Assembly (NCBI GenBank): GCA_018993265.1
Contig: JAGKSW010000192.1
Span: 1 to 42,524 of the forward strand
Direction of reading: 5' to 3'
Length of the DNA stretch: 42,524 nt
Origin: Nostoc sp. TH1S01
GTDB lineage: Bacteria > Cyanobacteriota > Cyanobacteriia > Cyanobacteriales > Nostocaceae
Positions 13,352 to 39,634 of this stretch are shown piece after piece. Positions within the stretch are counted from its first letter, which is position 1, and the number at the start of each line of letters is the position of its first letter. The notes beneath the pieces are model-generated. The model was not told the DNA's origin. It saw only the letters and a list, made by a program, of their open reading frames with translations, and made no database searches. A program made the translations under genes and the position numbers.

Positions 13352-13408
13352 GGTTACTCAGCAACGCCAGTTCGCTCAAGTCGGCAGAAAGAGCCGCGCG
13401 ACTGGCTC

Positions 13409-13432: not shown

Positions 13433-13433
13433 C

Positions 13434-16180: not shown

Positions 16181-16201
16181 TAAGCGCGATCGCTTATTTT
16201 T
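16181..16201 (+). terminator. Possible terminator after the small membrane protein gene
   Basis: TAAGCG-CGAT-CGCTTA inverted repeat followed by five T. It includes a HIP1 octamer, so the palindrome may simply reflect that motif. Confidence 0.4.
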
Positions 16202-16283
16202 GGAAAACATTCTAAGCGAGAAATAATTGACGAAAAAATTCAGCATGTTGAGCGATCAAGTTCATACCATTGACATTTATCTT

Positions 16284-21927: not shown

Positions 21928-22356
21928 TTGCAGAGAAGGTGTGACAGAAATCGGAAACGTTCAAAAAGGCGGGCTATCTACTGTCCAATTCACAGTTGCT
22001 ATCTAGATAGTGTCAGTCAGAAATACCCAATTTTCGCTGATCAACCAGGACAGTTACAGCAAAGAGGTATTAGTCGGCGTAATGCATTAATGCTAGTAGC
22101 CAGCCAAACAGCTGTTCTTATAGAAGGAGAATGGTTAGAAGCATTTTGGTGTGACAAATGCCAACAAACAAAATGGTATCACGTCCAAAAGTTTGGCGAT
22201 CGCACATATAAACTTTCACTAGCCCCACAAGAACTTTGGCAACAGGTGACAGGAGTTATTCATCCACATGGAAATCCTTCAGTTGGAGAGTTTACTCGCA
22301 GACAATCAAGAGTAATGAGTTACAACAGCATCAAAGATTTTGAGTTTGTGAGTTAA
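21928..22356 (+). CDS. Small Cys-rich protein of unknown function
   Basis: A 142-residue protein that I do not assign to a named family. The N-terminus is very basic (R-R-C-D-R-N-R-K-R-S-K-R-R). C19-P-I-H-S-C24 and C75-D-K-C78 could form a zinc ribbon, with W-L-E-A-F-W before the second pair. There is no membrane segment. The start is TTG at 21928, chosen because GGGAGG ends five bases before it and no ATG is in frame upstream; the ATGs at 21912-21915 lead to an early stop. It precedes the ABC permease by 22 bases and so shares its transcript. A regulatory or enzyme-partner role in polysaccharide synthesis is possible but unsupported. Confidence 0.65.
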   Translation: MQRRCDRNRKRSKRRAIYCPIHSCYLDSVSQKYPIFADQPGQLQQRGISRRNALMLVASQTAVLIEGEWLEAFWCDKCQQTKWYHVQKFGDRTYKLSLAPQELWQQVTGVIHPHGNPSVGEFTRRQSRVMSYNSIKDFEFVS

Positions 22357-22378
22357 GTAAGTATCAATTTATTGGTCA

Positions 22379-23221
22379 ATGAGAGAGCAAAGTATCGTCT
22401 CCAAACAGGAGCTAATAATTGAAGCTGGACGTACCGAACGCCAATACTGGAGAGATTTATGGCGCTATCGGGAACTATTTTATTTTTTGGCTTGGCGAGA
22501 TATTATAGTGCGCTATAAACAAACAGCCATAGGTATAGCCTGGGCTTTGATACGTCCGTTTTTAACAATGGTAGTATTTACAGTCGTATTCGGAAATCTA
22601 GCCAAGCTACCTTCTGAAGGTGCGCCATACCCGATATTAGTATTTGCGGCTATGCTACCTTGGCAGTTCTTTGCTAACGCCTTAAGTGAGTGTAGTAACA
22701 GTCTAATTACTAACTCCAACCTAATATCTAAAGTATATTTTCCCCGTTTGATTGTGCCTACCAGTTCAGTGATAGTCAGTTTTGTAGATTTCCTAATTTC
22801 TGGCATAATTCTGTTGGGGCTAATGGCTTGGTATAACTATATACCAGACTGGCGAATTCTGACATTACCATTGTTTATATTGATTGCATTTGCAGCGGCG
22901 ATTGGAGCAGGTTTATGGTTAGCGGCATTGAATGTAGAATATAGAGATTTTCGTTACATAGTGCCATTTATTGTGCAATTTGGCTTGTACATTTCGCCTG
23001 TAGGTTTTAGTAGCAGTATCGTACCCCAGCAATGGCGATTAGTTTATTCATTAAACCCTATGGTGAGTGTAATTGATGGCTTTCGCTGGGCAATCATAGG
23101 TAATGAATCAAGCATATATGTCCCAGGATTTTTACTATCACTAGGACTTGTAATATTTTTGTTAATCAGCGGAGTATGGTATTTTCGCAGAATGGAACGA
23201 ACATTTGCTGATGTCATTTAG
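22379..23221 (+). CDS. wzm: ABC-2 type polysaccharide exporter permease (Wzm-like)
   Basis: A 280-residue permease with six membrane segments. The N-terminal amphipathic region has Y-W-R-D-L-W-R-Y-R-E-L, then F-Y-F-L-A-W-R-D-I-I-V-R-Y-K-Q-T-A-I-G-I-A-W, the hallmark of Wzm/TagG/RfbA-type permeases. The periplasmic loop with Y-F-P-R-L-I-V-P and the L-N-P-M-V-S-V-I-D-G-F-R-W motif are present. It exports a lipid-linked glycan together with a Wzt ATPase. The matching ATPase gene is not adjacent but 10.6 kb downstream at 33796, which is unusual. The ATG at 22379 is used; it lies 22 bases after the Cys-rich gene. Confidence 0.92.
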   Translation: MREQSIVSKQELIIEAGRTERQYWRDLWRYRELFYFLAWRDIIVRYKQTAIGIAWALIRPFLTMVVFTVVFGNLAKLPSEGAPYPILVFAAMLPWQFFANALSECSNSLITNSNLISKVYFPRLIVPTSSVIVSFVDFLISGIILLGLMAWYNYIPDWRILTLPLFILIAFAAAIGAGLWLAALNVEYRDFRYIVPFIVQFGLYISPVGFSSSIVPQQWRLVYSLNPMVSVIDGFRWAIIGNESSIYVPGFLLSLGLVIFLLISGVWYFRRMERTFADVI

Positions 23222-23280
23222 GCTATATCCGCTTACTGGGCTAAATCACTATTGACAAAATTTACTTTATTTCACCTGAG

Positions 23281-23685
23281 ATGAATTCTCAATTATCAAA
23301 TTCTCGTGTGAAACTAATTTCATACATAACTTTATTTGCCAGCATCGGATTTGGCATAGTTGGTCAGCTGCTGATGAAGCATACCATGAGTCAGACAGCG
23401 ACAGGAATTTTTACTTGGACATTTATTCAGCAATTAGTACTAGCTTTAACTATTTACAGTCTGGGAATAGTGAATTGGATATTTGCTCTGCGAGTTGTAA
23501 AACTTAGTATTGCTTATCCACTCACTAGCTTAAATTATGTAGGGATTTTATTGGGTTCATATTATTTTTTTGATGAAAAAATTACTCCTGGTAGAGTATT
23601 TGGAATAGTTTTAATTTTTGTTGGTGTTCTTTTGGTTGCTTTACCACTGAAAAAACGCACAAATATTAAGGAAGACATTAGCTAA
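23281..23685 (+). CDS. EamA/SMR-like half-transporter, ArnE/F-like
   Basis: A 134-residue protein with four membrane segments, the size of a drug/metabolite-transporter half unit. Segments start near residues 10, 46, 72 and 104 (I-G-F-G-I-V-G-Q-L-L-M-K-H; L-A-L-T-I-Y-S-L-G-I-V-N-W; L-N-Y-V-G-I-L-L-G-S-Y-Y; V-F-G-I-V-L-I-F-V-G-V-L-L). G-Q-L-L-M-K in segment 1 and the P-L-T-S-L-N-Y segment resemble ArnE/ArnF, which flip polyprenyl-phosphate-aminoarabinose. The next gene codes for a second such unit 33 bases on, so the two may form a heterodimer. The substrate is inferred from context only. Confidence 0.8.
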   Translation: MNSQLSNSRVKLISYITLFASIGFGIVGQLLMKHTMSQTATGIFTWTFIQQLVLALTIYSLGIVNWIFALRVVKLSIAYPLTSLNYVGILLGSYYFFDEKITPGRVFGIVLIFVGVLLVALPLKKRTNIKEDIS

Positions 23686-23718
23686 AGCTCTGTTAATGGC
23701 TATATAAGGTATTTGTTG

Positions 23719-24075
23719 ATGAACATTATTCCTTGGCTAATTTTATTGCTGGTAGTCGTATTAGGTACAGTAGGTCAATTATCACTGAAGTATGCGTTTC
23801 AAGCTAATACTAGTCAGTCGAAAAGCAAGCCAATGCAAAATATTCTATTTTCACCTTATTTTTGGACTTGGTTTGTTTCCTATGTGATTGTAACTGTTTT
23901 ATGGCTAATTGTTTTGCGAACAATTCCTCTTAGCCAGGCTTTTCCTACATTGGGATTAACATTTGCTTTAGTACCTTTAGCATCTTATTACTTCCTACGT
24001 GAGCATGTTGTTTTGAGCCAATGGATAGGAATTGCCATTATTGTCACTGGTGTCATATTAGTTGTCCAAAAATAA
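23719..24075 (+). CDS. Second EamA/SMR-like half-transporter, ArnE/F-like
   Basis: A 118-residue protein with four membrane segments, related to but different from the preceding unit. It has G-T-V-G-Q-L-S-L-K-Y at segment 1 and P-L-S-Q-A-F-P-T-L-G-L-T-F at segment 3, then E-H-V-V-L-S-Q-W-I-G-I. A polar loop of about 15 residues (A-N-T-S-Q-S-K-S-K-P) separates segments 1 and 2. The ATG at 23719 is preferred to two in-frame TTG codons just before it; AAGG stands upstream. Together the pair is the best candidate for a flippase of a polyprenyl-phosphate sugar used by the GT39 protein at 26559. Confidence 0.8.
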   Translation: MNIIPWLILLLVVVLGTVGQLSLKYAFQANTSQSKSKPMQNILFSPYFWTWFVSYVIVTVLWLIVLRTIPLSQAFPTLGLTFALVPLASYYFLREHVVLSQWIGIAIIVTGVILVVQK

Positions 24076-24133
24076 TTGCTTACCTGTTGGCAATTAAATT
24101 TCATATCTTAGACAATTTTAGAAAAGAAAGTTT

Positions 24134-25129
24134 ATGAGTCAATCACCTCGAAAAATTTTAGTGACAGGAGTTGCAGGATTTCTAGGCTCCCATTTGTTAG
24201 ATAAGCTCTTGGCATCAGGTCATGAAGTAATTGGTATTGATAATCTTTCTATGGGTAAATTAGAAAATATTTCCCATAACTTTAGCAACAAGGGGTTTCA
24301 ATTTCTTCAAAAAGATGTTACTGAAAAAACTACATTTGAAAATTTAGAAAATGACATCGATTGCATTGTTCATCTAGCTGCTTTCAAAATTCCACGATAT
24401 GGCAAAGCCATTGATACTCTTAAAATAAATTATCAAGGTACAGAAAATGTTCTCGATTTAGCACAAAAATTAAATTGTAAATGTGTTTTAGCTTCCACCT
24501 CTGACGTATACGGACGCAATCCGAAAATACCTTTTAGTGAAGAAGATAACTCAGTGATTGGCCCGTCGACGGTATCACGTTGGAGTTATGCAGTATCTAA
24601 GTTATTTGATGAACATTTAGCTTTTGCTTACCAAGAAAGTTATGGTATCCCTGTTGTCCTTCTGCGCTTTTTCGGTTCCTATGGCCCACGGCATCATTTA
24701 TCGTGGTGGGGAGGCCCTCAGTCGGTATTTATAGAACAAGTATTGAATGATGGCGAAATCACCATTCATGGTGATGGACTGCAAACTCGCAGTTTTACTT
24801 TTGTTAGTGATACTGTAGCTGGTATTTATGCGGCTACTATTAAACCAGAAGCTAATGGGGAAATTTTCAATATTGGTAGCAATCATGAAATTACAATTCT
24901 TGATTTAGCTAAAACCATTAAGCGGCTAAGTAATACACCAGGAGAACTCAAGCTGAAATTTATTCCCTATGAATCTTTTACAGGGCGCAAATATGAAGAC
25001 GTTAGACGGCGTGTCCCAGATAGCAGTAAGTGTGAACGAATTCTTGGGGTGAAGGCTGGAGTAAGTTTAGAAGAAGGACTGTATCGCACAATTGAATGGC
25101 AACGTCGTCTGGGCCTGTATAAATATTAA
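24134..25129 (+). CDS. Extended SDR sugar-nucleotide epimerase/dehydratase
   Basis: A 331-residue NAD-dependent enzyme. The Rossmann motif T-G-V-A-G-F-L-G (11-18) is followed by G-I-D-N-L-S-M-G, typical of enzymes on UDP-sugars. The active site has S-T-S-D-V-Y-G near 120 and S-Y-A-V-S-K near 152 (the Y-x3-K pair). R-F-F-G-S-Y-G-P-R and the R-S-F-T-F-V-S-D motif for the sugar nucleotide follow. The pattern R-W-S-Y-A-V-S-K is close to UDP-glucuronate decarboxylases (UXS, ArnA C-terminal part), so the product may be a UDP-pentose, but a 4-epimerase or 4,6-dehydratase is also possible. It lies 58 bases after the half-transporter pair and precedes an FAD enzyme. Confidence 0.85.
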   Translation: MSQSPRKILVTGVAGFLGSHLLDKLLASGHEVIGIDNLSMGKLENISHNFSNKGFQFLQKDVTEKTTFENLENDIDCIVHLAAFKIPRYGKAIDTLKINYQGTENVLDLAQKLNCKCVLASTSDVYGRNPKIPFSEEDNSVIGPSTVSRWSYAVSKLFDEHLAFAYQESYGIPVVLLRFFGSYGPRHHLSWWGGPQSVFIEQVLNDGEITIHGDGLQTRSFTFVSDTVAGIYAATIKPEANGEIFNIGSNHEITILDLAKTIKRLSNTPGELKLKFIPYESFTGRKYEDVRRRVPDSSKCERILGVKAGVSLEEGLYRTIEWQRRLGLYKY

Positions 25130-25142
25130 GAATTAAGAAAAT

Positions 25143-25172
25143 AGGTGCGTTACAAATTTGCTAAACGCACCT
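25143..25172. repeat. AGGTGCGTT hairpin repeat between two operon genes
   Basis: Perfect 9-base arms (25143-25151 and 25164-25172) around 12 bases. Short GGTGCGTTA...AACGCACC hairpins of this kind are scattered in cyanobacterial genomes. It might partly end or stabilise the transcript between the SDR and FAD genes. No T-run follows. Confidence 0.6.
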
Positions 25173-25216
25173 TGCCTTAAATTGCTTTGTTTTCACAAAT
25201 TTAAATTTCAAATATT

Positions 25217-26512
25217 ATGAATATCGGTATTGTAGGTGGCGGAATGATGGGGTTAGCGTTAGCTTATAGGCTTTCGCAGCAAGGACATAAAGTAACTGTT
25301 TTTGAAAGCAACCAGCAACTGGGCGGACTTACTACCTATCATGATTATGGTTCTTTTATTTGGGATCGTTTTTATCACGTTATCTTACCATCCGATACTC
25401 ATCTCATTAAATTTATTAAAGACATTGGGCTAGCTGACAAACTGCGCTGGCATAGAACACTAACGGGATGCTACATCGACCAAAAATTATATTCCATTAG
25501 CAACACTCTGGAATTTTTGCGCTTTCCACCATTGACTATTATTGGGAAACTGCGGTTAGCAATAACTCTCTTATATGGTTCCAGAATTAATAACTGGCGC
25601 AGACTAGAAAAAATTCCTGTTGAAGATTGGCTTTTGAAACTTTCAGGGAGAAATACATACGAAAAGTTATGGAAACCGTTACTGTTAGCCAAACTAGGAG
25701 ATAACTATCAACGTGTCTCTGCCGTATTTATTTGGTCGTATATAAAACGCCTGTTTTCAGCCCGTGATTCCTCTTTGCATAAAGAACAACTTGGTTATGT
25801 TGCAGGTGGCTACAAGACTGTTTTTGACAGATTAGAAGAATTAATTCGTCTTGCTGGTGGTGATATTCACACAGAAGCAAAAGTTGAATACATTGCACCA
25901 CATCAACATGGTGGGATTTGGGTTGAATACAATGGTAAGAAAGAACGTTTCGATAAAGTAATATTTACTGGGCCAGTAAATGTTTTACAAAGCGTAGTAG
26001 CCAGAGACATGGTCAAGATAAGCCAAACAAGTGGCACAGTAGAATACTTGGGTGTCATTTGTATGGCATTAATTACCCGTAAAGCTTTAGTTCCTTACTA
26101 TATAGTTAATCTTGCCGACCAGCATCTTCCCTTTACAGGTGTTCTTGGTATGAGTAACTTAGTTTCCTTACAGGAAACAGCAGGTATGCACATCACATAC
26201 TTTCCGAAATATGTGCATTCCGACGACCCAATTTTAAAGCAACCAGATGATGAACTGCAAAAGTTGTTTTTTCAGGGGCTGCGTTTAATGTTTCCAAAAC
26301 TTACAGCAGATGACATTGTAGCAGCACATATTAACCGCGCTACTAAAATGCAACCACTACAAGTGTTAAACTACTCTAATCTAGTTCCGAAAGTAGTTAC
26401 TGAAAACAATGATTTTTTTGTTCTCAACACTTCGCAGTTTGTGAATGACACACTGAACAACAATACTGTTGTAAAGCATGTGGATGAATTCGTAAAAAAT
26501 ATTAGAGAATAA
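25217..26512 (+). CDS. FAD-dependent oxidoreductase (amine oxidase / protoporphyrinogen oxidase-like)
   Basis: A 431-residue flavoprotein. The dinucleotide-binding motif G-I-V-G-G-G-M-M-G-L-A-L-A is at residues 4-16, with the acidic F-E-S at the end of strand 2 and the G-G-L-T-T-Y motif that contacts FAD at 40-45. G-Y-V-A-G-G-Y-K-T-V-F near 195 is a second family motif. It belongs to the PF01593-like group that also includes UDP-galactopyranose mutase relatives. Such enzymes are often found next to a sugar epimerase, a GT2 and a GT39 protein, so a role in making or changing an unusual sugar or lipid-linked sugar is likely but unproven. It is a cytoplasmic or peripheral protein. The ATG at 25217 is at the start of the Rossmann fold. 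Confidence 0.82.
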   Translation: MNIGIVGGGMMGLALAYRLSQQGHKVTVFESNQQLGGLTTYHDYGSFIWDRFYHVILPSDTHLIKFIKDIGLADKLRWHRTLTGCYIDQKLYSISNTLEFLRFPPLTIIGKLRLAITLLYGSRINNWRRLEKIPVEDWLLKLSGRNTYEKLWKPLLLAKLGDNYQRVSAVFIWSYIKRLFSARDSSLHKEQLGYVAGGYKTVFDRLEELIRLAGGDIHTEAKVEYIAPHQHGGIWVEYNGKKERFDKVIFTGPVNVLQSVVARDMVKISQTSGTVEYLGVICMALITRKALVPYYIVNLADQHLPFTGVLGMSNLVSLQETAGMHITYFPKYVHSDDPILKQPDDELQKLFFQGLRLMFPKLTADDIVAAHINRATKMQPLQVLNYSNLVPKVVTENNDFFVLNTSQFVNDTLNNNTVVKHVDEFVKNIRE

Positions 26513-26558
26513 AAATTAAATTTGCCTCTAATTCTAATTCTGGAGGCTGGTGATTTAT

Positions 26559-28322
26559 ATGAAACAAAGCTGGTTAAAAGTAGACATATGGCTATTTGCC
26601 GTACTTGTCTTTTTCACTATATTTGCTTGGGCTAATTGGGGCAAGATCCAATTCCCTATTATTGACATTGGACACGAAGTTGTAACTCCACCTCGCCTTT
26701 TAGCAGGAGAGGTTCTGTATCGTGATGTAGATAGTTACTATGCTCCTCTTTCCTACTATTTGAATGCCTTATTTATCTTAATATTTGGATACCATTTGGA
26801 AGTATTTTATGCAATAGGTTTATTTTTATCGTTGGTAGCAACATTATTATTTTACTCTCTAGCAAAGAAACTGATGAATTCTCAATGGGCGTTTCTTTGT
26901 ACAATTTATATGTTGGCATACTGTGCAATTGGACCTAGTATTACAAACTTTATTGTTCCTTACAGTTATGGTGCAGTGTATGCAATTGTATTAAGTTTAC
27001 TAGCTTTTACTTTTATTGACCAATACGCTCATAAAGGTCAAACACTATGGTTAGTCGCTGCTGCGATCGCTTGTGGATTAGCTGGGCTTTCTAAACAAGA
27101 ATATGGAGTAGCCTTATTAGGATCAGTACTAGTTGGTACGAACATTTATGCTTCTCACGACCAGAATATAAAAACTCAGTTCTGGCGTAGCCTACTTGTA
27201 ATTTTAGTATCAGGTGCAAGCTTTATACTACCACTTACTATACTTATTTGTCAGCAAGTTTCTTGGGAACAACTAAAACAGTCACTTTTACCGTTATCAA
27301 AGTCTCAAATTTTAATAGACAGTGGTATGTTTGGTTTCACACCAGCGCGTACTATTAATATATGGTGGCGCGGCTTAAAAAATTTTTTAGGAGCGTTTCC
27401 AGTTATTTTAGGTGTAGTCATATTATCTAATTGGCTTTCCAAGTTAATTAAATTAAAGTTTTACCGACAATTTAAAACTTTATTTGAATTGTTATTTAGC
27501 ATTGTAATTTCAGTAGTTTGTCTCTTTTGGATAAATTACTTAGCTTTTTTTAAGTACTATACTTTTACAGAATTTATTCAACCAATTTCTGATTTGTCTT
27601 GGTCAATTCCTTTAATTTTATGTTGGTTTTTACTAAATAGACAAAAAATATCTCATATTAGAAATGCATCTTTATTATTGTCCTTACTTATTTTTTCATT
27701 ATTAATAAATTCTCGTTGGCTATTTCATATTTATTTCTATGGATTATTTGCAATCTCTGTAGTTTTATTATTTTTTGCTTTAATTTTTTATATAACTCAG
27801 CGAAGTCGTAGAATCTTATGGTCTTCTTTATTAGTATGCATATTAATTGCTAGTGGTCTAAAATTATGGAATTTAACACCCTATCGTTATGCAGTAACTT
27901 CAAATTTTGGAACTTTTTATACTGAAGATATAGCATTAGCTGATGCTTTTAATAAAACTATTAATACTCTAAATACTTCTTATGCTTCTTCGGTTTTGAT
28001 TTTGCCACATGGAAATATTCTTAACTTCTTGACTCGAACTCATTCACCTAGTAAAGAAACCAATTTTATTCCTGGTGTTATTCCTACTGCTAAAGACGAA
28101 CAAAATTTTATTTTAGATATGGAGAAACAATCTCTCGACTTGATTGTTTATGTAGATGTACCATTCTATTCACTCAATCCAGGTTATCGGACGTTTGCTG
28201 AAATTAATCCCCTAATTCATAAATGGATTATTACAGAACATCAATTAGTTAAAACGTTTTCCATTAATAGCAAATTTCCTTGGAACAATGGAATAATTAA
28301 AATATTTACACCATTCAAATAA
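26559..28322 (+). CDS. GT39/ArnT-like integral membrane glycosyltransferase
   Basis: A protein of about 587 residues with roughly a dozen membrane segments in the first 450 residues and a soluble periplasmic C-terminal domain of about 140. The first periplasmic loop has P-I-I-D-I-G-H-E-V with the acidic pair expected of GT-C enzymes, and then S-Y-Y-A-P-L-S-Y-Y-L-N-A-L, the analogue of the H-P-P-L-Y-Y motif. G-L-S-K-Q-E-Y-G is also typical. It should take a sugar from polyprenyl phosphate and place it on an acceptor outside. It shares little with the GT39 protein at 7350. Start: an in-frame GTG at 26550 stands only 3 bases after TGGAGG, so the ATG at 26559 is preferred with some doubt. It lies 46 bases after the FAD gene. 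Confidence 0.8.
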   Translation: MKQSWLKVDIWLFAVLVFFTIFAWANWGKIQFPIIDIGHEVVTPPRLLAGEVLYRDVDSYYAPLSYYLNALFILIFGYHLEVFYAIGLFLSLVATLLFYSLAKKLMNSQWAFLCTIYMLAYCAIGPSITNFIVPYSYGAVYAIVLSLLAFTFIDQYAHKGQTLWLVAAAIACGLAGLSKQEYGVALLGSVLVGTNIYASHDQNIKTQFWRSLLVILVSGASFILPLTILICQQVSWEQLKQSLLPLSKSQILIDSGMFGFTPARTINIWWRGLKNFLGAFPVILGVVILSNWLSKLIKLKFYRQFKTLFELLFSIVISVVCLFWINYLAFFKYYTFTEFIQPISDLSWSIPLILCWFLLNRQKISHIRNASLLLSLLIFSLLINSRWLFHIYFYGLFAISVVLLFFALIFYITQRSRRILWSSLLVCILIASGLKLWNLTPYRYAVTSNFGTFYTEDIALADAFNKTINTLNTSYASSVLILPHGNILNFLTRTHSPSKETNFIPGVIPTAKDEQNFILDMEKQSLDLIVYVDVPFYSLNPGYRTFAEINPLIHKWIITEHQLVKTFSINSKFPWNNGIIKIFTPFK

Positions 28323-28336
28323 AAATTTTTTGTTAC

Positions 28337-31300
28337 TTGGTACACGGTGTGTTAATTTTGGTATTTTGTGTACTGAGTAACCTTTATTTTTCGATATTCA
28401 CTCATATAATTTGTAACCATTCAGGAGCAGAAAATAAATATATGGTAAGTGTATTTACAAATCAGACACCAGATTATCCCAATGCTACTGATAGTGCTTC
28501 CTATGAACTGGGGATGAAATTTCGCAGTACTCAAGCTGGTCAAATTACTGCTATTCGTTACTGGAAAGCACCAAGTGAAACTGGTACTCATATTGGTAAA
28601 ATATGGTCAGCAAATGGTCAATCTCTGGCAACAGTGACCTTCGTAAATGAGACAGTCTCAGGATGGCAGGAGCAAGTACTTGATGCGCCATTAAATATTC
28701 AAGCCAACACAACTTATGTTGTCAGTGTTAACTGTAATAGCCATTTCCCCATTACTTACGATGTCTTCGCAAACTCTATTAGCAATGGAACTCTAACTTC
28801 AGTTACAGACGGGAATAACGGAATATTTGGTGTTCCTGGTTCTTTACCGACAAACTCTTACCGCAACAGTAACTATTTTCGAGACATTGTATTTACCGCC
28901 GTGGTTAGTACCCCAACAATGACCAAAGTAAGTGGTGATAATCAAACTGCCACAGCAGGAAATGCTTTGCCTAACCCTCTGATTGTTCAAGTTAAAGATA
29001 GCTCTGGTAATCCTCAATCGGGAGTTACAGTAAACTTTGCAGCCACAAATGGTGGTGGTTCTGTTTCGCCTACTAACGCTGTAACTGATGCTAATGGTCA
29101 GGCTAGCACAGTCTTAACATTAGGATATGCACTGGGCGCAACTAGTCCAGTGACAAATACAGTAGATGCAACAGCCTCTGGTATGGGTAGTGTAACTTTT
29201 ACTGCCACAGCTAACCCTTCACAGGCAATTAATAACCAAAAAGTTTTTACAACACAGACACCAACTATTTCCGATGTCAGTGATGGTGTTGCTTATGAAC
29301 TGGGAATGAAATTTCAGAGTGCTAAGGGTGGTCAAATTACTGCCATTCGCTATTGGAAAGCAACAAGTGAAACTGGTACTCATGTTGGTAAAATATGGTC
29401 AGCAAATGGTCAGTCTCTGGCAACAGTGACCTTCGTAAATGAGACAGTCTCAGGATGGCAGGAGCAGACTCTCAATTCTCCACTAACTATTATTCCTAAT
29501 ACAACTTATGTTGTCTCTGTTAATATAAATAGCCACTTTGTTCTGACTTACAATCAATTGGCAAGTTCTGTTGTTAATGGAGATCTTAGTTCTATTGCTG
29601 GTGGTAATGGTGTTTACGGCAATATAAATACTTTTCCAAATAATTCTTATCAGAATAGTAATTATTTCCGAGACATTGTTTTCGTTGCCGGTAGTTCTCT
29701 AGTCAAGGTAAGTGGTGATAATCAAACAGGAACTGTAGGAAGTACGTTACCTACTCCGCTAGTTGTGCAAGTAAAAGATGGTTCTGGTAATCCTCAACCG
29801 GGAGTAACGGTTAACTTTGCTGTTACTAGTGGTGGCGGTTCAGTGTCACCCACAAGTGTGATCACTGATGCAAATGGTCAGGCTAATACGATTTTAACTT
29901 TAGGATCGATACCCAGTGGTCCCAATAGTGCTACTCAGGTAGAGGCAACAGCTTCTGGTATTGGTAATGCTTATTTTACAGCCCAAGCTGTTCCAGCCAA
30001 TGCTAATCATATATATTTGGAAAACCAAAAACCTGGCACAACAAACTGGAAGATTACTTCAGGATCTAATAATAATGAAATTGCTGGTTATGCATCAGCA
30101 ACTAGTGTAAATAAAGGGGGAACACTAGATTTCAAAATTTCTTTAGCACAACCAGGAACATATACAGTTGATGTGTACCGCTTAGGTTACTACCAAGGTA
30201 AAGGAGGCAGACTCGTATTTAGTACTGGCTCCTTGAATGGAATTACCCAACCACCCTTAACTTTAACAGACGCAAGTACTCGCCTCTATGAGGCAACTAA
30301 CTGGTCAACTTCTTATACCCTACAAATAGGCAATGATTGGACTAGCGGACTCTATATAGCTAAGCTAAACGACCAACTTAGCGGCAGACAAGCATATATA
30401 TTTTTTGTTGTACGCGACGATAACACCAACTCAGATATTTTATTTCAAAGCAGCTTTAACAACATGTTGGCTTATAATTCTATGAGTGGTTACAGTACTT
30501 ATGCCTGGAATAGCATGAATGGTCAAAGGGCATTTAAAGTCTCATATGATGTACCATTCATACAAGCTAGTAGTGGCTATTGGATAGCTAATGATACTAA
30601 TTCTATGCTGCGCTATGAATACAATATGGCACGATGGTTAGAATCTCAAGGTTATAACGTAACATATGTAACCAATGTCGATGTCCATAATAACCCTCAA
30701 TTGCTACAGCGATATAAGGTATTTATGTCAGTAGGTCATGATGAATACTGGACAATGGAAGCATACAACAATGTCAAGCAGTCGCGTGATACTAGTAGTG
30801 GAGTAAATTTAACATTTTTCTCGGCTAATACTTGTTACTGGCGAGTACGCTTTGAAAACTCTAACACTGGTCAGTCTAACAGGGTAATGGCATGTTACAA
30901 GGATGACTGGCAACAAGATCCAATTGCCCCAACTAATAAATTCCGCAGTATCCAAAATAACACACCTGAAAACTCCCTGTTAGGGGTAATGTATACAGGT
31001 GATAGAAGTAATGACGCTTTCGGTGGCTATGATTTTGTGATTAGTAACAGTAGTCACCCCTATTATGCCCATACAAACGTTAATGATGGTGATCAACTGA
31101 CTTTACTGGTAGGCTATGAATGGGATGCAGTCGTCAATAATGGCTCTACACCAAATGGTTTAGTAACTTTGTCGGAATCACCAGTTGATCCACAAAATGT
31201 AGATACGGATGTTCCTCCTGGAACGAATTATCAAATATCAAATGCTGTCTGTTACACTGCTGCTAGTGGAGCTAAAGTCTTCGCAACTGGTTCTATTCAG

Positions 31301-31435
31301 TGGGCATGGGGATTAGATAGTGATGGTGTTCAAACCCCACGCGAAGATATCCGTGCTAAACAAATTGCTGTCAATATCTTAAAAGATATGGGTGCAATCC
31401 CAACAACCCCAGATGCAGGCATCATAGTGTCTTGA
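28337..31435 (+). CDS. Secreted multidomain protein: 2 x (DUF4082 + Ig-like) + dimethylformamidase-like domain
   Basis: A 1032-residue protein. An N-terminal hydrophobic stretch (V-L-I-L-V-F-C-V-L-S-N-L-Y-F) looks like a signal or anchor. Then come DUF4082 (about 35-190), a Big_1 Ig-like domain (about 195-290), a second DUF4082 (about 300-445), a second Big_1 (about 450-550) and, from about 555, a domain like the large subunit of N,N-dimethylformamidase with P-G-T-T-N-W, Y-R-L-G-Y-Y, G-H-D-E-Y-W-T and T-C-Y-W-R-V. Known dimethylformamidase is an iron enzyme; whether this one hydrolyses an amide, for example on an N-acyl sugar, is unknown. TTG at 28337 is the first start and GTG at 28349 is an option; the ATG at 28442 would remove the signal. 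It is exported to the periplasm or surface. Confidence 0.82.
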   Translation: MVHGVLILVFCVLSNLYFSIFTHIICNHSGAENKYMVSVFTNQTPDYPNATDSASYELGMKFRSTQAGQITAIRYWKAPSETGTHIGKIWSANGQSLATVTFVNETVSGWQEQVLDAPLNIQANTTYVVSVNCNSHFPITYDVFANSISNGTLTSVTDGNNGIFGVPGSLPTNSYRNSNYFRDIVFTAVVSTPTMTKVSGDNQTATAGNALPNPLIVQVKDSSGNPQSGVTVNFAATNGGGSVSPTNAVTDANGQASTVLTLGYALGATSPVTNTVDATASGMGSVTFTATANPSQAINNQKVFTTQTPTISDVSDGVAYELGMKFQSAKGGQITAIRYWKATSETGTHVGKIWSANGQSLATVTFVNETVSGWQEQTLNSPLTIIPNTTYVVSVNINSHFVLTYNQLASSVVNGDLSSIAGGNGVYGNINTFPNNSYQNSNYFRDIVFVAGSSLVKVSGDNQTGTVGSTLPTPLVVQVKDGSGNPQPGVTVNFAVTSGGGSVSPTSVITDANGQANTILTLGSIPSGPNSATQVEATASGIGNAYFTAQAVPANANHIYLENQKPGTTNWKITSGSNNNEIAGYASATSVNKGGTLDFKISLAQPGTYTVDVYRLGYYQGKGGRLVFSTGSLNGITQPPLTLTDASTRLYEATNWSTSYTLQIGNDWTSGLYIAKLNDQLSGRQAYIFFVVRDDNTNSDILFQSSFNNMLAYNSMSGYSTYAWNSMNGQRAFKVSYDVPFIQASSGYWIANDTNSMLRYEYNMARWLESQGYNVTYVTNVDVHNNPQLLQRYKVFMSVGHDEYWTMEAYNNVKQSRDTSSGVNLTFFSANTCYWRVRFENSNTGQSNRVMACYKDDWQQDPIAPTNKFRSIQNNTPENSLLGVMYTGDRSNDAFGGYDFVISNSSHPYYAHTNVNDGDQLTLLVGYEWDAVVNNGSTPNGLVTLSESPVDPQNVDTDVPPGTNYQISNAVCYTAASGAKVFATGSIQWAWGLDSDGVQTPREDIRAKQIAVNILKDMGAIPTTPDAGIIVS
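28577..29466 (+). repeat. Near-identical 98-bp copies in the two DUF4082 modules
   Basis: Bases 28577-28674 and 29369-29466 differ at only two positions, while the sequence on either side has diverged clearly between the two modules. This marks local gene conversion or a recent partial duplication. Confidence 0.85.
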
Positions 31436-31442
31436 TGAAAAC

Positions 31443-31485
31443 TGTAAAGCAGGTAGTAATCATTGACTTTGCTACCTGCTTTACA
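31443..31485 (+). terminator. Strong hairpin after the secreted protein gene
   Basis: Perfect 14-base stem (31443-31456 with 31472-31485) around a 15-base loop, starting eight bases after the stop. Only three T lie at the end of the stem and no T-run follows, so it may be a terminator, an mRNA stabiliser or an attenuator before the next gene. Confidence 0.55.
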
Positions 31486-31545
31486 TCTGAGAAATATGTA
31501 TCGTCTCAGCCTTATAGAAATATTTTTAATAAATCTAGAAATCAT

Positions 31546-32556
31546 ATGAACCTGAGCTTAAAACGCCGCAGATTTGGTCAGATGATGATCGCTAGTGCTA
31601 CTACCGCCGCTATGGCTAATATGGCAGATAAAACACTAGCACAATCTTCATCTTCAAAACTAGTTGGCTTTAGTCTTGCCTCCAATAACCTCAAAGTTGG
31701 GCTGTCTGTGGGTGGTTTACTGTCTGTTGATGTGTCATTGAAGACAGATCTAATTAATACGACTCCACAAATAGTTATACAAACTTTAGACTTGCTCAGC
31801 GGCAAATTATTATCAACTCTGGAAGTCGCATCTAAGCTAGTTACAAACTTAAGAACCTCAACTGAAAGTTCTCCTAAAGCCTTATATAGCCAAACCTACG
31901 AACGAATTACTGATGCAACTACTTTAACCGATGGTAGGTTGGTAATTTCCTCGGTAACAAGTACACAGAAGGGAAATTATAACAAAATCGTGATATTTGA
32001 TGCTAAGACCAATTCATATCAAGAAGGTATAAAAGTATCAGGATTTCGTAGCAATAACGCCACTATTGAAAGCGTGATGGCAATGAAAGATAATCGGCTG
32101 TTAAGTATTATCAGTTTCGGTGAGGGAGTTCCACCTTTTTACTTCGCTGTGATTGACTCTACAACAGGTAAAATTTCTGCGGGGACTGAACTAGCTTTAC
32201 CTGATTTGTCTCCAGATGAACGCTTCAGTAATTTGGCTCAAGCTCCTGATGGTAAAATTTATGCTACCAATATTGATCGAGAAGGAAATACAAATATAGT
32301 TCAAATAGACTTAAAGAACAGGTCATTACTTACTGGTAAAGCAAAGATTGTCCCTTATGTGCAGTTGCGCTTGGAAAAAGAAGCTTTGAGAAATGATTTG
32401 TTAAGTATGGCCTTTTCCTCATCAGGACAACTGTATGCACTTGCTGCGCCTAATGGTGAAAAAACTAAATCGTTGTACACCATAGACATGAAAACAGGTG
32501 AGTTGCAGTACTTAACAGAATTTTTAGTTGAGCAAATTGCATTTTCTTTCTATTAA
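31546..32556 (+). CDS. Tat-exported protein of unknown function, probable beta-propeller
   Basis: A 336-residue protein. The N-terminus has a twin-arginine signal: S-L-K-R-R-R-F-G-Q at 4-12, a mildly hydrophobic Ala/Met-rich stretch and T-L-A-Q near 30 as cleavage site. The mature part shows repeated strands of the form D-G-R-L-V-I-S-S, D-N-R-L-L-S-I, D-G-K-I-Y-A-T and S-G-Q-L-Y-A-L spaced by about 50 residues, as in beta-propeller repeats. The frame is open back to the previous stop, but the ATG at 31546 is chosen because the upstream 37 codons lie in a strong hairpin and would bury the Tat signal. Tat export suggests that it folds or binds a cofactor before export. A terminator follows. Confidence 0.75.
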   Translation: MNLSLKRRRFGQMMIASATTAAMANMADKTLAQSSSSKLVGFSLASNNLKVGLSVGGLLSVDVSLKTDLINTTPQIVIQTLDLLSGKLLSTLEVASKLVTNLRTSTESSPKALYSQTYERITDATTLTDGRLVISSVTSTQKGNYNKIVIFDAKTNSYQEGIKVSGFRSNNATIESVMAMKDNRLLSIISFGEGVPPFYFAVIDSTTGKISAGTELALPDLSPDERFSNLAQAPDGKIYATNIDREGNTNIVQIDLKNRSLLTGKAKIVPYVQLRLEKEALRNDLLSMAFSSSGQLYALAAPNGEKTKSLYTIDMKTGELQYLTEFLVEQIAFSFY

Positions 32557-32591
32557 TTTAACAGGATCTAAAATGCAATTAAATTTCTCTC

Positions 32592-32622
32592 AACCCCTAC
32601 TTTTCGATAGGCAGGGGTTTTT
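32592..32622 (+). terminator. Intrinsic terminator after the Tat-exported protein gene
   Basis: AACCCCT (32592-32598) pairs with AGGGGTT (32613-32619), followed by T on to 32622. It is 36 bases after the stop codon and has the standard form, so the rightward transcript probably ends or drops here. Confidence 0.75.
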
Positions 32623-32665
32623 AGTACTGAATACTCATTCAATGATTTAAATAAAGGCGAAAAAT

Positions 32666-33499
32666 ATGCACTCACGATTCTCGTTGTTAAAAAAAATAGA
32701 GCAACAGCAATCCATTAGTATTATAGTTCCCTGTTTTAATGAATCTGAAGGGATTGCATCTTTAAAGAAAAAACTGGGGCCAGTTTTAACAGAACTGAGA
32801 GCAACTAGATCAGTTGAAGTAATTTTTGTTGATGATGGTAGCAGTGATGATACTTTTTTGATATTACACGAATACTTTGGTCAAGAAGCTCAGATTATCC
32901 GTCATCCAAAAAATAAAGGTTTGTCAGCAGCAACAAAAACTGGTGTGGCGCATTCAAGAAGTGATATTATTTGCACTATAGATAGTGATTGCACGTACGA
33001 ACCTTACCAGCTAGTTGGTCTTTTGGATTTTATGTATAAAGATGTTGACATTGTTACAGCATCACCTTACCATCCCAAGGGTAAGGTAAAAAATGTTCCA
33101 GAATGGCGCTTATTCCTTAGCAAAGGTTTATCCAAGCTTTATAGACTAGTGTTGCCTCAAAAGCTATATACTTATACTAGTATGTTTCGAGCCTACCGCA
33201 GGGAAGTATTAGAAACAGTAAATGTTAACCATCCCGGATTTTTAGGTTTAGTAGAAATTATCGCAGAAGCAATGTTAGTGGGTTATAAAGTTGTAGAGTA
33301 TCCAGCAGAATTAAAGAGAAGGGAATTTGGACAATCGAAACTACGCGTCGCTAGAGTTATTTGGAGTCACTTAAAGTATATTAGTAAGCTAGTTGTAAGA
33401 CAAACGTTGCAACCTAAAAAAATTCGTTCACGGCAGTATACTTACAAAGCTAAAATTTATACAACTAAGATAAATAATGAAAACGATTACACTATTTAG
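32666..33499 (+). CDS. GT2 glycosyltransferase, polyprenyl-phosphate-sugar synthase-like
   Basis: A 277-residue GT-A enzyme. I-V-P-C-F-N-E-S-E-G at residues 17-26 starts the fold, V-D-D-G-S-S-D-D-T follows at about 54, and T-I-D-S-D-C-T-Y-E-P near 104 carries the metal-binding D-x-D. K-R-R-E-F-G-Q-S-K-L-R near 215 matches the R-x-x-G-x-S-K motif of dolichyl-phosphate-mannose-synthase and ArnC-like enzymes. There is no large C-terminal membrane part. It is the likely source of a polyprenyl-phosphate sugar for the GT39 protein at 26559, a step otherwise missing in this block. It begins after a terminator and is followed by 296 bases without a gene, so it may be a single unit. Confidence 0.85.
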   Translation: MHSRFSLLKKIEQQQSISIIVPCFNESEGIASLKKKLGPVLTELRATRSVEVIFVDDGSSDDTFLILHEYFGQEAQIIRHPKNKGLSAATKTGVAHSRSDIICTIDSDCTYEPYQLVGLLDFMYKDVDIVTASPYHPKGKVKNVPEWRLFLSKGLSKLYRLVLPQKLYTYTSMFRAYRREVLETVNVNHPGFLGLVEIIAEAMLVGYKVVEYPAELKRREFGQSKLRVARVIWSHLKYISKLVVRQTLQPKKIRSRQYTYKAKIYTTKINNENDYTI

Positions 33500-33795: not shown

Positions 33796-35076
33796 ATGTC
33801 TGAAACTTCTATTAGAGTAGAAAGTTTGGGAAAAAAATATATTCTTACTCATCAAGATGAAGGTCTAAAATATAAGGCTTTAAGAGATGTTGTTACAAGT
33901 AAAATTAAATCTATTAGTAAACAAATTTTTAAAGCAGATGACAAAAATACACATCGAAATGGTGAAGAATTTTGGGCTTTAAAAGATATTTCCTTTGAAA
34001 TTAAACAAGGCGATCGTGTAGGCATTATTGGTCGTAATGGTGCCGGAAAATCTACTTTACTAAAAGTTTTAAGCCGCATTACAGAACCTTCTAAAGGTAA
34101 GATAACTATCAAAGGAAGAGTAGCAAGCTTATTAGAAGTTGGTACAGGATTTCACCCAGAATTAACAGGCAGAGAAAATATTTATCTCAATGGTGCCATC
34201 TTGGGGATGAGTAAAGCAGAAATTAAACGTAAATTTGATGAAATTGTTGATTTTGCTGAAGTAGAAAAGTTTTTGGATACACCTGTTAAACGTTATTCAT
34301 CAGGTATGTATGTGCGCCTTGCCTTTGCAGTAGCGGCTCATTTAGAACCAGAAATTTTAATTGTAGATGAAGTACTGGCAGTGGGTGATATTCACTTCCA
34401 GAAGAAGTGCCTTGGAAAAATGGAGGATGTTGGAAAAGAAGGACGTACAGTTTTGTTTGTCAGTCATCAAATGGCTACTGTCGAAAATTTATGCTCACAA
34501 GGCATTGTATTGAGTGCTGGCAGTGTCAAATTTATTGGCAATACAAAGTCAGCAATTAATTTATATTTAAGAGATTTAGAAGCTCAAACAAAGTCTGTAA
34601 ATGTTGTAGATTTAAAACGTTCAGGTTCTGGAGATATAAGAATTACTAACTTTTCTCTAGAAGACATTTATGGCAATCCTCTAATGTCAGCAGCTTCTGG
34701 CGAAGATTTGGTTTTAGTTTTTCATTATGAAGTAACTGTAAATAAATTTATACAGAATGCCACTGTAGGATTTTCAATCCATACTTTTTCAGGAGAAAGA
34801 ATTACTATTTTGTATAGTGATTATGTAGGCAGTACATTTTCTGGGATTCCAAAATTCGGGAAATTTAAGTGCAAAATTAAAGATTTTCCCTATGCAACTG
34901 GTAGATATTTTATAGCAGTAAGAGTACTAGTTAATGGTATAGAAGCTGATTGGCCTAGAGACTTTATCGGTTGTATAGATGTTGTAGCAGGAGACTTTTA
35001 TCGAACAGGAATTAGTGGGCATAGTGGCACTGGGTTAGTCTTATTAAGAGGTGATTGGGCAGTAGAGGAAGTTTAA
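33796..35076 (+). CDS. wzt: ABC polysaccharide exporter ATPase (Wzt-like) with C-terminal domain
   Basis: A 426-residue protein. The ATPase part has G-R-N-G-A-G-K-S-T near 78, Y-S-S-G-M-Y-V-R-L near 168 as signature and I-L-I-V-D-E-V-L-A-V-G-D near 186, all characteristic of Wzt/TagH. An insert of about 30 residues lies before the Walker A. From about 275 to the end there is a beta-rich Wzt C-terminal domain (G-S-G-D-I-R-I-T-N-F-S-L, then V-G-F-S-I-H-T-F-S-G-E-R, Y-F-I-A-V-R-V-L). In E. coli O8/O9a systems this domain recognises the modified chain end before export. Its partner is the Wzm-type permease at 22379. A methyltransferase follows 119 bases on, which could make that terminal mark. 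Confidence 0.92.
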   Translation: MSETSIRVESLGKKYILTHQDEGLKYKALRDVVTSKIKSISKQIFKADDKNTHRNGEEFWALKDISFEIKQGDRVGIIGRNGAGKSTLLKVLSRITEPSKGKITIKGRVASLLEVGTGFHPELTGRENIYLNGAILGMSKAEIKRKFDEIVDFAEVEKFLDTPVKRYSSGMYVRLAFAVAAHLEPEILIVDEVLAVGDIHFQKKCLGKMEDVGKEGRTVLFVSHQMATVENLCSQGIVLSAGSVKFIGNTKSAINLYLRDLEAQTKSVNVVDLKRSGSGDIRITNFSLEDIYGNPLMSAASGEDLVLVFHYEVTVNKFIQNATVGFSIHTFSGERITILYSDYVGSTFSGIPKFGKFKCKIKDFPYATGRYFIAVRVLVNGIEADWPRDFIGCIDVVAGDFYRTGISGHSGTGLVLLRGDWAVEEV

Positions 35077-38653: not shown

Positions 38654-38695
38654 TAATTTTTATGGAATTTTGATAATTCTAGTATAGATTACCTT

Positions 38696-38721
38696 AAAAA
38701 ATAATTAAGAATTATTTTTTT
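38696..38721 (+). terminator. AT-only hairpin with T-run
   Basis: Perfect 11-base arms (38696-38706 and 38710-38720) around AAG, ending in seven T. It has no GC pairs, so it is weak. It fills most of the 100-base gap between two genes of the series and could reduce read-through. Confidence 0.35.
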
Positions 38722-38753
38722 ATTTTGTATAGTTAGAAACTTTAAATTCAATT

Positions 38754-39611: not shown

Positions 39612-39634
39612 ATTAGCCAAAAGCTTAATTATAT

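Follow-up and report, generated by a model that had tools for sequence, protein, structure and literature searches.

What do eight genes do between wzm and wzt, the permease and ATPase genes of an ABC-type polysaccharide exporter, and do they belong with that exporter? The question is raised by a 42,524-nt stretch of DNA from Nostoc sp. TH1S01 (contig JAGKSW010000192.1), the whole of which is called the window below. Analysis of the genes and their relatives suggested that the block probably comprises a periplasmic glycosylation module of the three-component type with redox tailoring, together with a separable amidohydrolase module, in one ABC-type polysaccharide locus.

Gene content of the wzm–wzt interval

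In the window, wzm directly precedes and wzt directly follows the block (positions 23281–33499; SMR1 through GT2 in the order of Table 1), and the distance between the two exporter genes is 10,577 bases. Among 80 genomes of the same family, wzt was located within 250 bases downstream for 62 of the 88 wzm matches (two of the 88 rows being fragments in one genome, G154, and wzt rows including only those at E<=1e-95); the statement in the first-pass annotation that the two genes normally adjoin is thus right for most. Pfam and NCBIfam scans of the window ORFs also bore out its gene classes and coordinates. The large DMFA2_C protein probably starts at ATG 28442 (mechanical ORF: TTG 28337), as judged by eye from an AGGAG and from homologue N-termini, and the DUF5074-like protein probably at ATG 31546 (mechanical ORF: TTG 31432). 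For SMR2, ATG 23719 is a possible true start.

Table 1 Features of the eight-gene block and the flanking exporter genes in the window
Feature	Coordinates	Strand	Evidence
Wzm-type ABC-2 permease of polysaccharide exporter	22379..23221	+	Pfam ABC2_membrane E 2.3e-19; NCBIfam galactan Wzm best match, below cut-off
SMR1, ArnE/F-like half-flippase	23281..23685	+	NCBIfam ArnE 1.4e-12, below cut-off; charge bias +4; GQLLMK motif
SMR2, ArnE/F-like half-flippase	23713..24075	+	NCBIfam ArnE 9e-14, below cut-off; charge bias -2; GQLSLK motif
Extended SDR, UDP-glucuronate-decarboxylase-like	24134..25129	+	PDB best match 2.4e-50; YxxxK, invariant STSDVYG
FAD enzyme, PRK07233 clade (amine-oxidase/HpnE/CrtI superfamily)	25217..26512	+	NF005560, 481 vs cut-off 252 bits
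GT-C-like membrane glycosyltransferase (GT39/PMT_2-like), 590 aa	26550..28322	+	PMT_2 2.3e-4, below Pfam cut-off; Foldseek ranks 1–17
DUF4082-Big_1-DUF4082-Big_1-DMFA2_C protein, predicted mononuclear-iron amidohydrolase	28442..31435	+	DMFA2_C 2.2e-100, DUF4082 4e-79, Big_1 2.9e-16
DUF5074-like protein with Tat-type leader	31546..32556	+	DUF5074 1.5e-5, below cut-off; leader conserved
GT2 polyprenyl-phosphate glycosyltransferase, DPM/ArnC/PpgS-like (predicted)	32666..33499	+	PDB 5mlz 7.2e-26, ArnC 9hwj 1.6e-15
Wzt-type ATPase with Wzt_C carbohydrate-binding domain	33796..35076	+	ABC_tran 1.3e-23, Wzt_C 3.4e-9

Predicted flippase pair and polyprenyl-phosphate glycosyltransferase

Three-component systems (GtrABC of Salmonella and Shigella, the Klebsiella galactose side chains, and Citrobacter ORF12-15/GT136) have in common a polyprenyl-phosphate sugar synthase, a flippase and a GT-C enzyme; in Klebsiella and Citrobacter they are described as acting on O-polysaccharides exported by ABC transporters (PMC11127046). 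Both SMR proteins of the window scored best against the NCBIfam ArnE and ArnF models, below the equivalog cut-offs (ArnE, 47.8 and 51.6 vs 92 bits; ArnF, 46.5 and 45.6 vs 99 bits). Among the homologues tested, the K+R bias of SMR1 was positive in 7/7 and the charge bias of SMR2 negative in 6/7, the exception being L051 (+1 with the start used), and in an alignment by eye the position of the central Glu carried no Glu in either protein. A review of the SMR family describes opposite charge biases in heterodimers and many lipid transporters without the central Glu (PMC9574504). The closest PDB match of GT2 was dolichol-phosphate mannose synthase 5mlz, followed by ArnC; ArnC and PpgS were its best NCBIfam models, both below cut-off (ArnC, 69.8 vs 529 bits), and no membrane anchor was recognised in it. 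Judged from sequence only, then, the SMR pair (opposite bias, no central Glu) and GT2 (5mlz, ArnC) would supply the flippase and the polyprenyl-phosphate glycosyltransferase of a three-component system, and the parts are consistent with the polyprenyl-phosphate-sugar decoration system proposed in the first-pass annotation.

SDR and FAD enzyme as proposed donor enzymes

Pfam, NCBIfam and PDB matches showed that the SDR is UXS/LegB-like. Its motif reads STSDVYG in 8/8 aligned sequences, in place of the STSEVYG of UDP-glucuronate decarboxylase 4gll. With this difference in the motif, we did not assign UXS activity by name. The Glu of the UXS motif is catalytic. The flavoenzyme belongs to PRK07233 and is of the amine-oxidase type (Pfam, NCBIfam), which rules out a DprE1 homologue. 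It is 68–85% identical in other cassettes and 24–27% identical to its relatives in proteobacterial operons, one of which, when scanned, exceeded the PRK07233 cut-off. Relatives of the FAD enzyme are located beside polyprenyl-phosphate machinery of unrelated types, and all five annotated contexts among the eight plasmid matches (three were without annotation) were UbiA/GtrA operons.

In placing a flavoenzyme and an SDR next to a polyprenyl-phosphate-sugar synthase and a small flippase, the block resembles the mycobacterial DprE1/DprE2 pathway and the proteobacterial UbiA-FAD oxidoreductase-SDR-SDR-FAD-GtrA operons, the latter containing the PRK07233 family itself; unlike both, it contains neither UbiA nor DprE1. 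Sharing of the whole SDR–FAD pair with the rhizobial operons was rejected, since the FAD enzyme is common to both, but of three operon SDRs compared with that of the window one matched at 25% identity and two had no match. In loci outside the Nostocales, a PF01522-type deacetylase gene followed the same FAD gene, directly or about 1 kb on, in five of seven; the other two (L094, L095) had no deacetylase in the stretch examined. Three FAD-like genes at 30% identity (G182, G192, G230) were left out of the counts; a GT2-like gene at 25–26% was located near the FAD-like gene in the two of these that were examined. A profile search detected no FAD-enzyme relative in viral_contigs, and a literature search for PRK07233 and related terms found nothing.

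These data bear on whether the SDR and FAD enzyme act on the lipid-linked sugar at all, or only make a nucleotide-sugar donor in an Arn-like manner, as a UXS-type decarboxylase plus an oxidase. The latter is a real possibility, one toward which we do not quite lean: the SDR is closest to UDP-glucuronate decarboxylase, and 10 of the 12 cassette genomes (the exceptions being the window and L051) have a nucleotide-sugar dehydrogenase gene ahead of the cassette, but the Asp of the SDR motif and the company that the FAD relatives keep speak against it, as does a reduced set of genes (flippase pair, FAD enzyme and another GT2) found in 37 mostly Nostoc loci, none of which had an SDR of the window type, a GT-C gene or the large protein in the fetched stretch.

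Distribution of the cassette and its relation to the exporter

Eleven other genomes also contain the cassette, with few genes missing (12 genomes including the window), and it is therefore real and not a chance arrangement. Strains that carry it include Plectonema radiosum NIES-515 and Nostoc sp. CHAB 5844. Three distant genomes of the order have the same eight genes close together as the window does, and eight further named loci contained the cassette with gaps; the GT39-like gene was present in 4/291 genomes of the order. SMR1 was present in 11/12 cassettes (the L058 row labelled "SMR1", which gave the 30.6% minimum, is a second match to its SMR2), the stretch of L104 ends before GT2, and the short FAD reading frame of G067 (274 aa) was left as is. 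Two cassettes, L026 and L058, had no GT-C match in the stretches examined. Another long membrane-like protein is encoded elsewhere in the L026 cassette.

The cassette was located between wzm and wzt in five of the 12 genomes; in the other seven this order was either absent or not resolved, and the cassette is thus not tied to the Wzm/Wzt exporter. In G067, wzm and wzt adjoin about 10 kb from SMR1, and the genomes of L051, G085 and G102 gave no wzm match at E<=1e-40. Accordingly, these genes do show a conserved association and are repeatedly located inside an ABC glycan-exporter locus, whereas the fixed joint system with Wzm/Wzt that the first-pass annotation had proposed was not supported. Nor was a single unit of eight genes supported, since some loci have the DMFA2_C/DUF5074-like pair but lack the flippase, FAD and GT-C genes. 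The flippase/FAD/GT2 core did not show the scattering of genes without association that the first-pass annotation had named as evidence against itself; reduced sets do exist, however, and the FAD gene had no recognised partners in three loci.

The cassette might instead decorate another glycan, such as an LPS core or a Wzx/Wzy polymer, and only happen to sit between wzm and wzt. The three genomes lacking a wzm match fit this explanation, as does a multi-pass Wzx-like protein, recognised by sequence inspection only, near the cassette in L051 and L009. We nevertheless consider it unlikely, because the wzm–cassette–wzt order is shared by five genomes and the amidohydrolase pair occurs alone at that site in two more (L183 and L185), and thus the site has been used repeatedly.

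GT-C-like enzyme and covariation among cassette genes

PMT_2 was the only Pfam match of the GT-C-like enzyme. Its profile matched no PDB chain at E<=1, and a related-locus search with this protein alone found nothing in genome_contigs. An alignment of seven sequences revealed an invariant D39, E43 and YRD in loop 1. ArnT loop 1 carries the motifs RYA and YFEKP (PMC5377068); the aligned sequences have R-L and Y-Y-x-P-L, with the K missing, and the absence of both motifs rules out ArnT orthology and with it the ArnT membership suggested in the first-pass annotation. In a Foldseek search with a model built from seven sequences, ranks 1–17 comprised oligosaccharyltransferases (alone or within complexes), PglB, ArnT and AftA, which points to a GT-C fold at the moderate to low confidence of the model (mean pLDDT 58.5, TM about 0.4; a single-sequence model was poorer, at pLDDT 44.6). 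The top matches were oligosaccharyltransferases, not single-sugar transferases: ranks 1–11 were oligosaccharyltransferase subunits or complexes, the matched chains of three translocon complexes presumably being the STT3 subunit, and ArnT and AftA stood at ranks 12 and 17.

Comparison of pair identities across the 12 cassettes, with shared ancestry uncorrected throughout, revealed that SMR1, SMR2, SDR, FAD enzyme and GT2, the donor genes, correlate with one another (rho 0.45–0.86); GT-C vs donor genes gave rho 0.14–0.35, the DUF5074-like protein varied with the donor genes (rho 0.56–0.87) and not with the DMFA2_C protein (rho 0.08), and the latter followed GT-C only (rho 0.57). The division into two modules is thus not mirrored in the pair identities. 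Mean identity was 51% for GT-C vs 65–87% for the donor genes. Because the donor genes covary, GT-C diverges and two cassettes are without GT-C, the cassette shows a constant donor half and a variable transferase, as expected of gtr-type three-component systems.

That the block is a neutral passenger between wzm and wzt, with no functional tie there, is very improbable, since its varying order and neighbours, and the small genes unmatched to the cassette in other wzm–wzt intervals (L184, L188, and L182 except for an SDR-like piece at 30%), are set against the covariation of the donor genes, long conservation (SDR 79–97% identical between all pairs of the 12 cassettes) and a site near tex, wzc and GT4a that the block occupies in the same gene order across several genera.

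Predicted amidohydrolase and its partner

The large protein resembles the large subunit of dimethylformamidase (DMFase) and N-acetyl-beta-phenylalanine acylase (DMFA2_C) in its iron-ligand and catalytic residues, and is unlike dimethylformamidase in being joined to DUF4082 and Big_1 domains and linked to polysaccharide genes. Counterparts of DMFase Y399, Y440, H519, E521, N547 and probably E657 were invariant in eight sequences; those in the window include Y713, Y722, E803, H801 and N831 (numbering of the 1032-aa ORF), the Y722 match requiring a one-residue gap placed by eye. Two Tyr and one carboxylate as predicted iron ligands, plus the His and Asn, place the protein by its sequence among the DMFA2_C iron amidohydrolases.

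The first-pass annotation had described two secreted proteins. This description suits the DUF5074-like protein, whose leader is of the Tat type and reads RRRFGQ or RRRFGK in 10/10 homologues shown; for the large protein only the domain types favour it, and inspection by eye of the window sequence from ATG 28442 revealed no Sec signal peptide. Relatives of the large protein have a short leader of the AQ type. The large protein had also been considered a target of modification. Its retained iron-binding and required residues make it look like an enzyme, and we rejected it as a glycosylation acceptor. We read it as a predicted amide hydrolase for an N-acyl-sugar polymer. DMFA2_C proteins were matched in 48/291 genomes of the order, five of them cassette genomes, and amino-sugar genes were found in 11 of 17 DMFA2_C neighbourhoods (16 from the other 43 genomes and a second copy in G229; L173 and L174 were cut by contig ends).

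These results also weigh on the idea that the module glycosylates secreted proteins, with a GT-C enzyme like a protein O-mannosyltransferase or oligosaccharyltransferase and the neighbouring secreted products as acceptors. The leading Foldseek ranks, the sole PMT_2 match and the two putative exported proteins encoded beside GT-C would suit such a function, but the model is weak, the fold is common to GT-C enzymes and ArnT and AftA also match; moreover, active-site residues of an enzyme are present in the large protein, the amidohydrolase pair is also encoded in loci that lack the module, and many neighbours are polysaccharide genes. We regard protein glycosylation as improbable.

Proposed pathway and comparison with known systems

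In the polysaccharide-decorating pathway that we favour, in which every reaction and its place in the sequence, both sugar and acceptor, and amidohydrolase export are inferred, GT2 would load a sugar onto polyprenyl phosphate on the cytoplasmic side, the FAD enzyme and SDR would make or tailor the sugar donor, and SMR1 and SMR2 would flip the lipid-linked sugar outward as an antiparallel heterodimer. The GT-C enzyme would then transfer the sugar, most likely onto the Wzm/Wzt-exported polymer (in relatives, onto other exported polymers), and the DMFase-fold iron amidohydrolase with its Tat-exported partner would most likely act on amino sugars of the polymer or the decoration by removing their N-acyl groups. 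More doubtful is a further reading, in which an exported DMFase-fold iron enzyme serves as a cyanobacterial polysaccharide N-deacylase replacing the NodB type, alongside flavoenzyme-led, non-DprE1 tailoring of a polyprenyl-phosphate-bound sugar.

Such a pathway would share with Arn an ArnC/DPM-like GT2, an ArnE/F-like pair, a GT-C-like transferase and an SDR related to the ArnA dehydrogenase domain, and would differ from it in the absent ArnT motifs and in ArnC/E/F matches below the equivalog cut-offs; the 30 window ORFs scanned gave no ArnB-, formyltransferase- or ArnD-type (PF01522) Pfam match. The scheme published for Citrobacter O2 has an auxiliary SDR epimerase act on the lipid-linked donor (PMC11127046). 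The window primes by a GT2 and uses a paired SMR flippase, in contrast to the phosphoribosyltransferase and MATE protein of Citrobacter, and it adds to the three-component systems a flavoenzyme and an amidohydrolase pair, with the genes between wzm and wzt. Among the literature matches listed, mainly from outside subscription journals, no paper described this gene set by its title or the start of its abstract, and the word "undecaprenyl" does not occur in the main text of a survey that covered cyanobacterial EPS genes across the phylum (PMC4594306).

If correct, the proposed pathway would give the side-chain decoration of an ABC-exported cyanobacterial polysaccharide a specific gene set. It would also connect a flavoenzyme family to which NCBIfam assigns no function with polyprenyl-phosphate sugars across several phyla, and would provide a likely substrate class for the DMFA2_C proteins of the order.

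Recurrence of the cassette

The gene for the candidate GT-C membrane glycosyltransferase was found in 4/291 genomes of the order, and the three genomes other than that of the window carry the same eight genes within ~11 kb, with GT-C in reverse orientation. A profile search of GTDB contigs with the flavoenzyme (FAD) revealed 76 loci, with long matches in 56 (loci L051–L106); the named carriers of the gene are Nostoc, Desmonostoc, Plectonema, Hassallia and Iningainema, which points to a filamentous Nostoc-type cyanobacterium as the probable source of the window. Eight of the 56 hold complete or almost complete cassettes (L051, L052, L053, L055, L056, L058, L075 and L104) and were analyzed as 12 cassettes together with the window and the compared genomes G067, G085 and G102; L053 and G229 refer to one and the same region of a genome. 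The co-occurrence check proposed in the first-pass annotation revealed that the genes recur together with few gaps: SMR2, SDR, FAD, the large DUF4082/Big_1/DMFA2_C protein (DMFA) and its DUF5074-like neighbour (D5074) were each present in 12/12 cassettes, SMR1 and GT2 in 11/12, and GT-C in 10/12. The cassette is real and conserved.

A reduced set (flippase pair, FAD and a different GT2) was found in 37/56 FAD loci, mostly Nostoc, with tex in the stretch in 35, tldD in 34, a GT4a-matching piece in 14 and a piece of a 142-aa ORF in 8; these loci look as if they were eroded remains of a larger polysaccharide locus. Seven loci lie outside Nostocales (Nitrospira, Rokubacteria, Nitrosospira, Bacteroidia, Synechococcales), three contain FAD without recognised partners (L057, L088, L089; the L088 sequence ends close by), and one (L105, 27%) is distant.

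Position relative to the ABC exporter genes

Analysis of 88 wzm matches from 80 genomes of the same family revealed wzt within 250 bases of wzm in 62, confirming that the two genes adjoin in most cases; the gap was 251–2000 bases in 6, 2001–9000 in 8 and 9001–25000 in 6, and the other 6 matches had no wzt downstream on the contig. Four of the six long gaps hold cassettes (window, 10.6 kb; L075 genome, 13.5; Desmonostoc, 15.8; Plectonema, 18.3). The remaining two are both in genome G154, and the one inspected (L182) contains one SDR-like piece at 30% and otherwise mostly small genes that match nothing in the cassette. A fifth cassette lies inside a 20.75-kb wzm–wzt gap in Hassallia. Cassettes flanked by both genes thus number 5/12. 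The other seven do not support the earlier proposal of a joint system with Wzm/Wzt: no wzm was detected at E≤1e-40 in the genomes of L051, G085 and G102, wzm and wzt adjoin each other ~10 kb from SMR1 in G067, and wzm sits elsewhere or could not be placed in L055, L056 and L058. Since 7/12 cassettes were not shown to lie between the two genes, the decoration module is not bound to Wzm/Wzt.

The window, which is the entire contig G000:C164 of a 7.65-Mb draft genome, is a polysaccharide locus; tex, a Wzc-like protein and GT4 are encoded upstream of the block, and wzt followed by methyltransferase, GT2 and GT4 genes downstream. The Roholtiella Wzt is 80% identical to that of the window over nearly the full length. 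The window methyltransferase and Wzt, both common to the Roholtiella cassette, may have a role in chain capping.

Features in the window and in related loci
Locus	Position (strand)	Feature
Window	7350-8969 (-)	Second PMT_2-type membrane protein, above Pfam cut-off, outside the block
Window	35196-35885	Methyltransferase past wzt; also in the Roholtiella cassette, 77%
Window	37682-40399	Three ORFs that match no Pfam family; related loci share the first at 70-80% identity
L014 (G067)	16160-17799	FAD frame of just 274 aa, then methyltransferase gene
L104 (Hassallia)	9167-9988	Additional ORF separating SDR and FAD
L104 (Hassallia)	12800-20030	Reversed GT-C flanked by two DMFA gene copies
L054, L059-L074, L076-L087, L090-L092, L099-L101, L103, L106		Reduced sets, usually with tex and tldD flanking
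L127-L130, L179		Proteobacterial plasmid operons (UbiA, FAD oxidoreductase, two SDRs, PRK07233-type FAD enzyme, GtrA); pseudaminic acid genes beside 2/5

Predicted products of the block

Pfam and NCBIfam scans and PDB sequence searches revealed two SMR-type half-flippases nearest to ArnE/ArnF, an extended SDR nearest to UDP-glucuronate decarboxylase, and a flavoenzyme that scores above cut-off for NCBIfam PRK07233 (named 'hypothetical protein') and matches HpnE and carotenoid desaturases more weakly. The nearest PDB entries to GT2 were the dolichol-phosphate mannose synthase 5mlz, from Pyrococcus furiosus, and, second, ArnC. The membrane protein matched Pfam PMT_2 weakly; Foldseek ranks 1–17 for its model, built with seven homologues (mean pLDDT 58.5, pTM 0.54), were oligosaccharyltransferases or complexes with one, PglB, ArnT (rank 12) and AftA (rank 17); their probabilities were 0.97–1.00 and their TM scores 0.30–0.45. 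The model supports placement of the protein in the GT-C class as a whole.

According to an SMR review (PMC9574504), the Arg/Lys bias is opposite in >95% of SMR pairs encoded next to each other, the central Glu is often missing in lipid SMRs, and every lipid SMR in the review's genome set is a single gene. The charge bias was +3 to +6 for SMR1 in 7/7 cassettes and -2 to -4 for SMR2 in 6/7 (+1 in L051). The SMR sequences printed have Gly or Ser at the position aligned by eye with the central Glu, taking EmrE as reference. The opposite bias and the Gly/Ser fit an antiparallel lipid-flippase heterodimer.

Role of SDR and FAD

A nucleotide-sugar dehydrogenase gene precedes SMR1 in 10/12 cassettes, accompanied in nine by Gfo/Idh, acetyltransferase and aminotransferase genes. 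A WecB-like gene lies past GT2 in nine (L104 is uncovered there) and was not seen at that position in the window or L051; the nearest Gfo/Idh and WecB-like proteins of the window genome (only 44% and 56% identical) are both encoded on another contig. Plasmid operons of rhizobia, Burkholderia and Rhodobacteraceae encode FAD relatives (24–27% identity); in 5/5 annotated contexts of 8 matches, the annotation comprises UbiA, FAD-binding oxidoreductase, two SDRs, NAD(P)/FAD oxidoreductase and GtrA. In the one operon scanned, UbiA and the FAD enzyme exceeded the PRK08238 and PRK07233 cut-offs, respectively, and the second flavoenzyme was DprE1-like, under cut-off. SDR of the window type was seen in 0/37 reduced sets and not in 2/7 non-Nostocales loci (L093, L102); the FAD gene is therefore steadily accompanied by polyprenyl-phosphate-sugar machinery, and not by any single sugar pathway. 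Tailoring of the lipid-linked donor by SDR and FAD is thus a fair alternative to donor synthesis, and slightly the likelier role.

Constant donor half and variable transferase

Comparison of all cassette pairs revealed mean identities of 87% for SDR, 77% for FAD, 72% for SMR2 and GT2, 67% for DMFA, 65% for SMR1, 51% for GT-C and 44% for D5074. Uncorrected for shared ancestry, pair identities of SMR1, SMR2, SDR, FAD and GT2 intercorrelated (rho 0.45–0.86), whereas those of GT-C correlated with this group at only 0.14–0.35; D5074 tracked the donor genes (0.56–0.87) but not DMFA (0.08), and DMFA tracked GT-C alone (0.57). The D5074 and DMFA correlations speak against a clean split between the flippase/SDR/FAD/GT2/GT-C set (module 1) and the DMFA/D5074 pair. 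In gtr-type systems the donor half is constant and the transferase changes, a pattern seen here too. Desmonostoc vinosum (G229) has an SDR 92% identical to that of the window, and no GT-C relative was found in it; a 520-aa membrane-like protein that has no clear match in Pfam and is encoded between a WecB-like gene and wzt might, as a guess, do the job of GT-C.

A predicted amide hydrolase separable from module 1

The iron ligands of Paracoccus dimethylformamidase are Y399, Y440 and E521, and its mutants Y440A, E521A, H519A, N547A and E657A are inactive (PMC7686228). An eight-homologue DMFA profile aligned both to this enzyme and to N-acetyl-(R)-beta-phenylalanine acylase, giving Y713, Y722, E803, H801, N831 and E928 in the 1032-aa ORF of DMFA as counterparts, of which Y722 requires a one-residue gap placed by eye and E928 comes from the acylase alignment only. 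None of the six varies among the eight homologues. DMFA is predicted to be an active amide hydrolase, and so looks like an enzyme rather than a target of modification, one of the two options first envisaged.

DMFA homologues (E≤1e-30) were found in 48/291 genomes of the order. Of 17 cassette-free neighbourhoods, 11 contained Wbp/Leg-type amino-sugar genes (26–50% identity), 9 a D5074-like gene and 5 wzm and/or wzt, whereas SMR, FAD and GT-C were all absent; two family genomes (L183, L185) have wzm–DMFA–D5074–wzt together without module 1, one with an extra 221-aa gene. DMFA can therefore exist without module 1, in loci of the ABC type and those rich in amino-sugar genes. Instead of a Sec signal, the DMFA relatives of L055, L165, L167, L169, L012, L014, L056 and L075 start with a short leader whose last residues are (L/F)IAQ or LMAQ; this possible export signal was not seen in DMFA of the window, L051, L052, L026 or L163.

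Of the non-Nostocales loci, 5/7 have a NodB-type deacetylase after FAD, immediately downstream in L093 and L102 and ~0.8–1 kb on in L096, L097 and L098; the three scanned matched PF01522, and the other two are 50–53% identical to one of these. No deacetylase was seen near FAD in the stretch examined of L094 and L095. Since DMFA and the NodB-type deacetylase are both amide hydrolases, a shared need for N-deacylation in the two kinds of loci is suggested.

System type

By the tests applied, the cassette is no Arn system. With functions read from sequence alone, it is best filed as working like a three-component extracytoplasmic glycosylation system, of the kind described as such in PMC11127046, to which redox enzymes and an amidohydrolase pair that can be separated are added.
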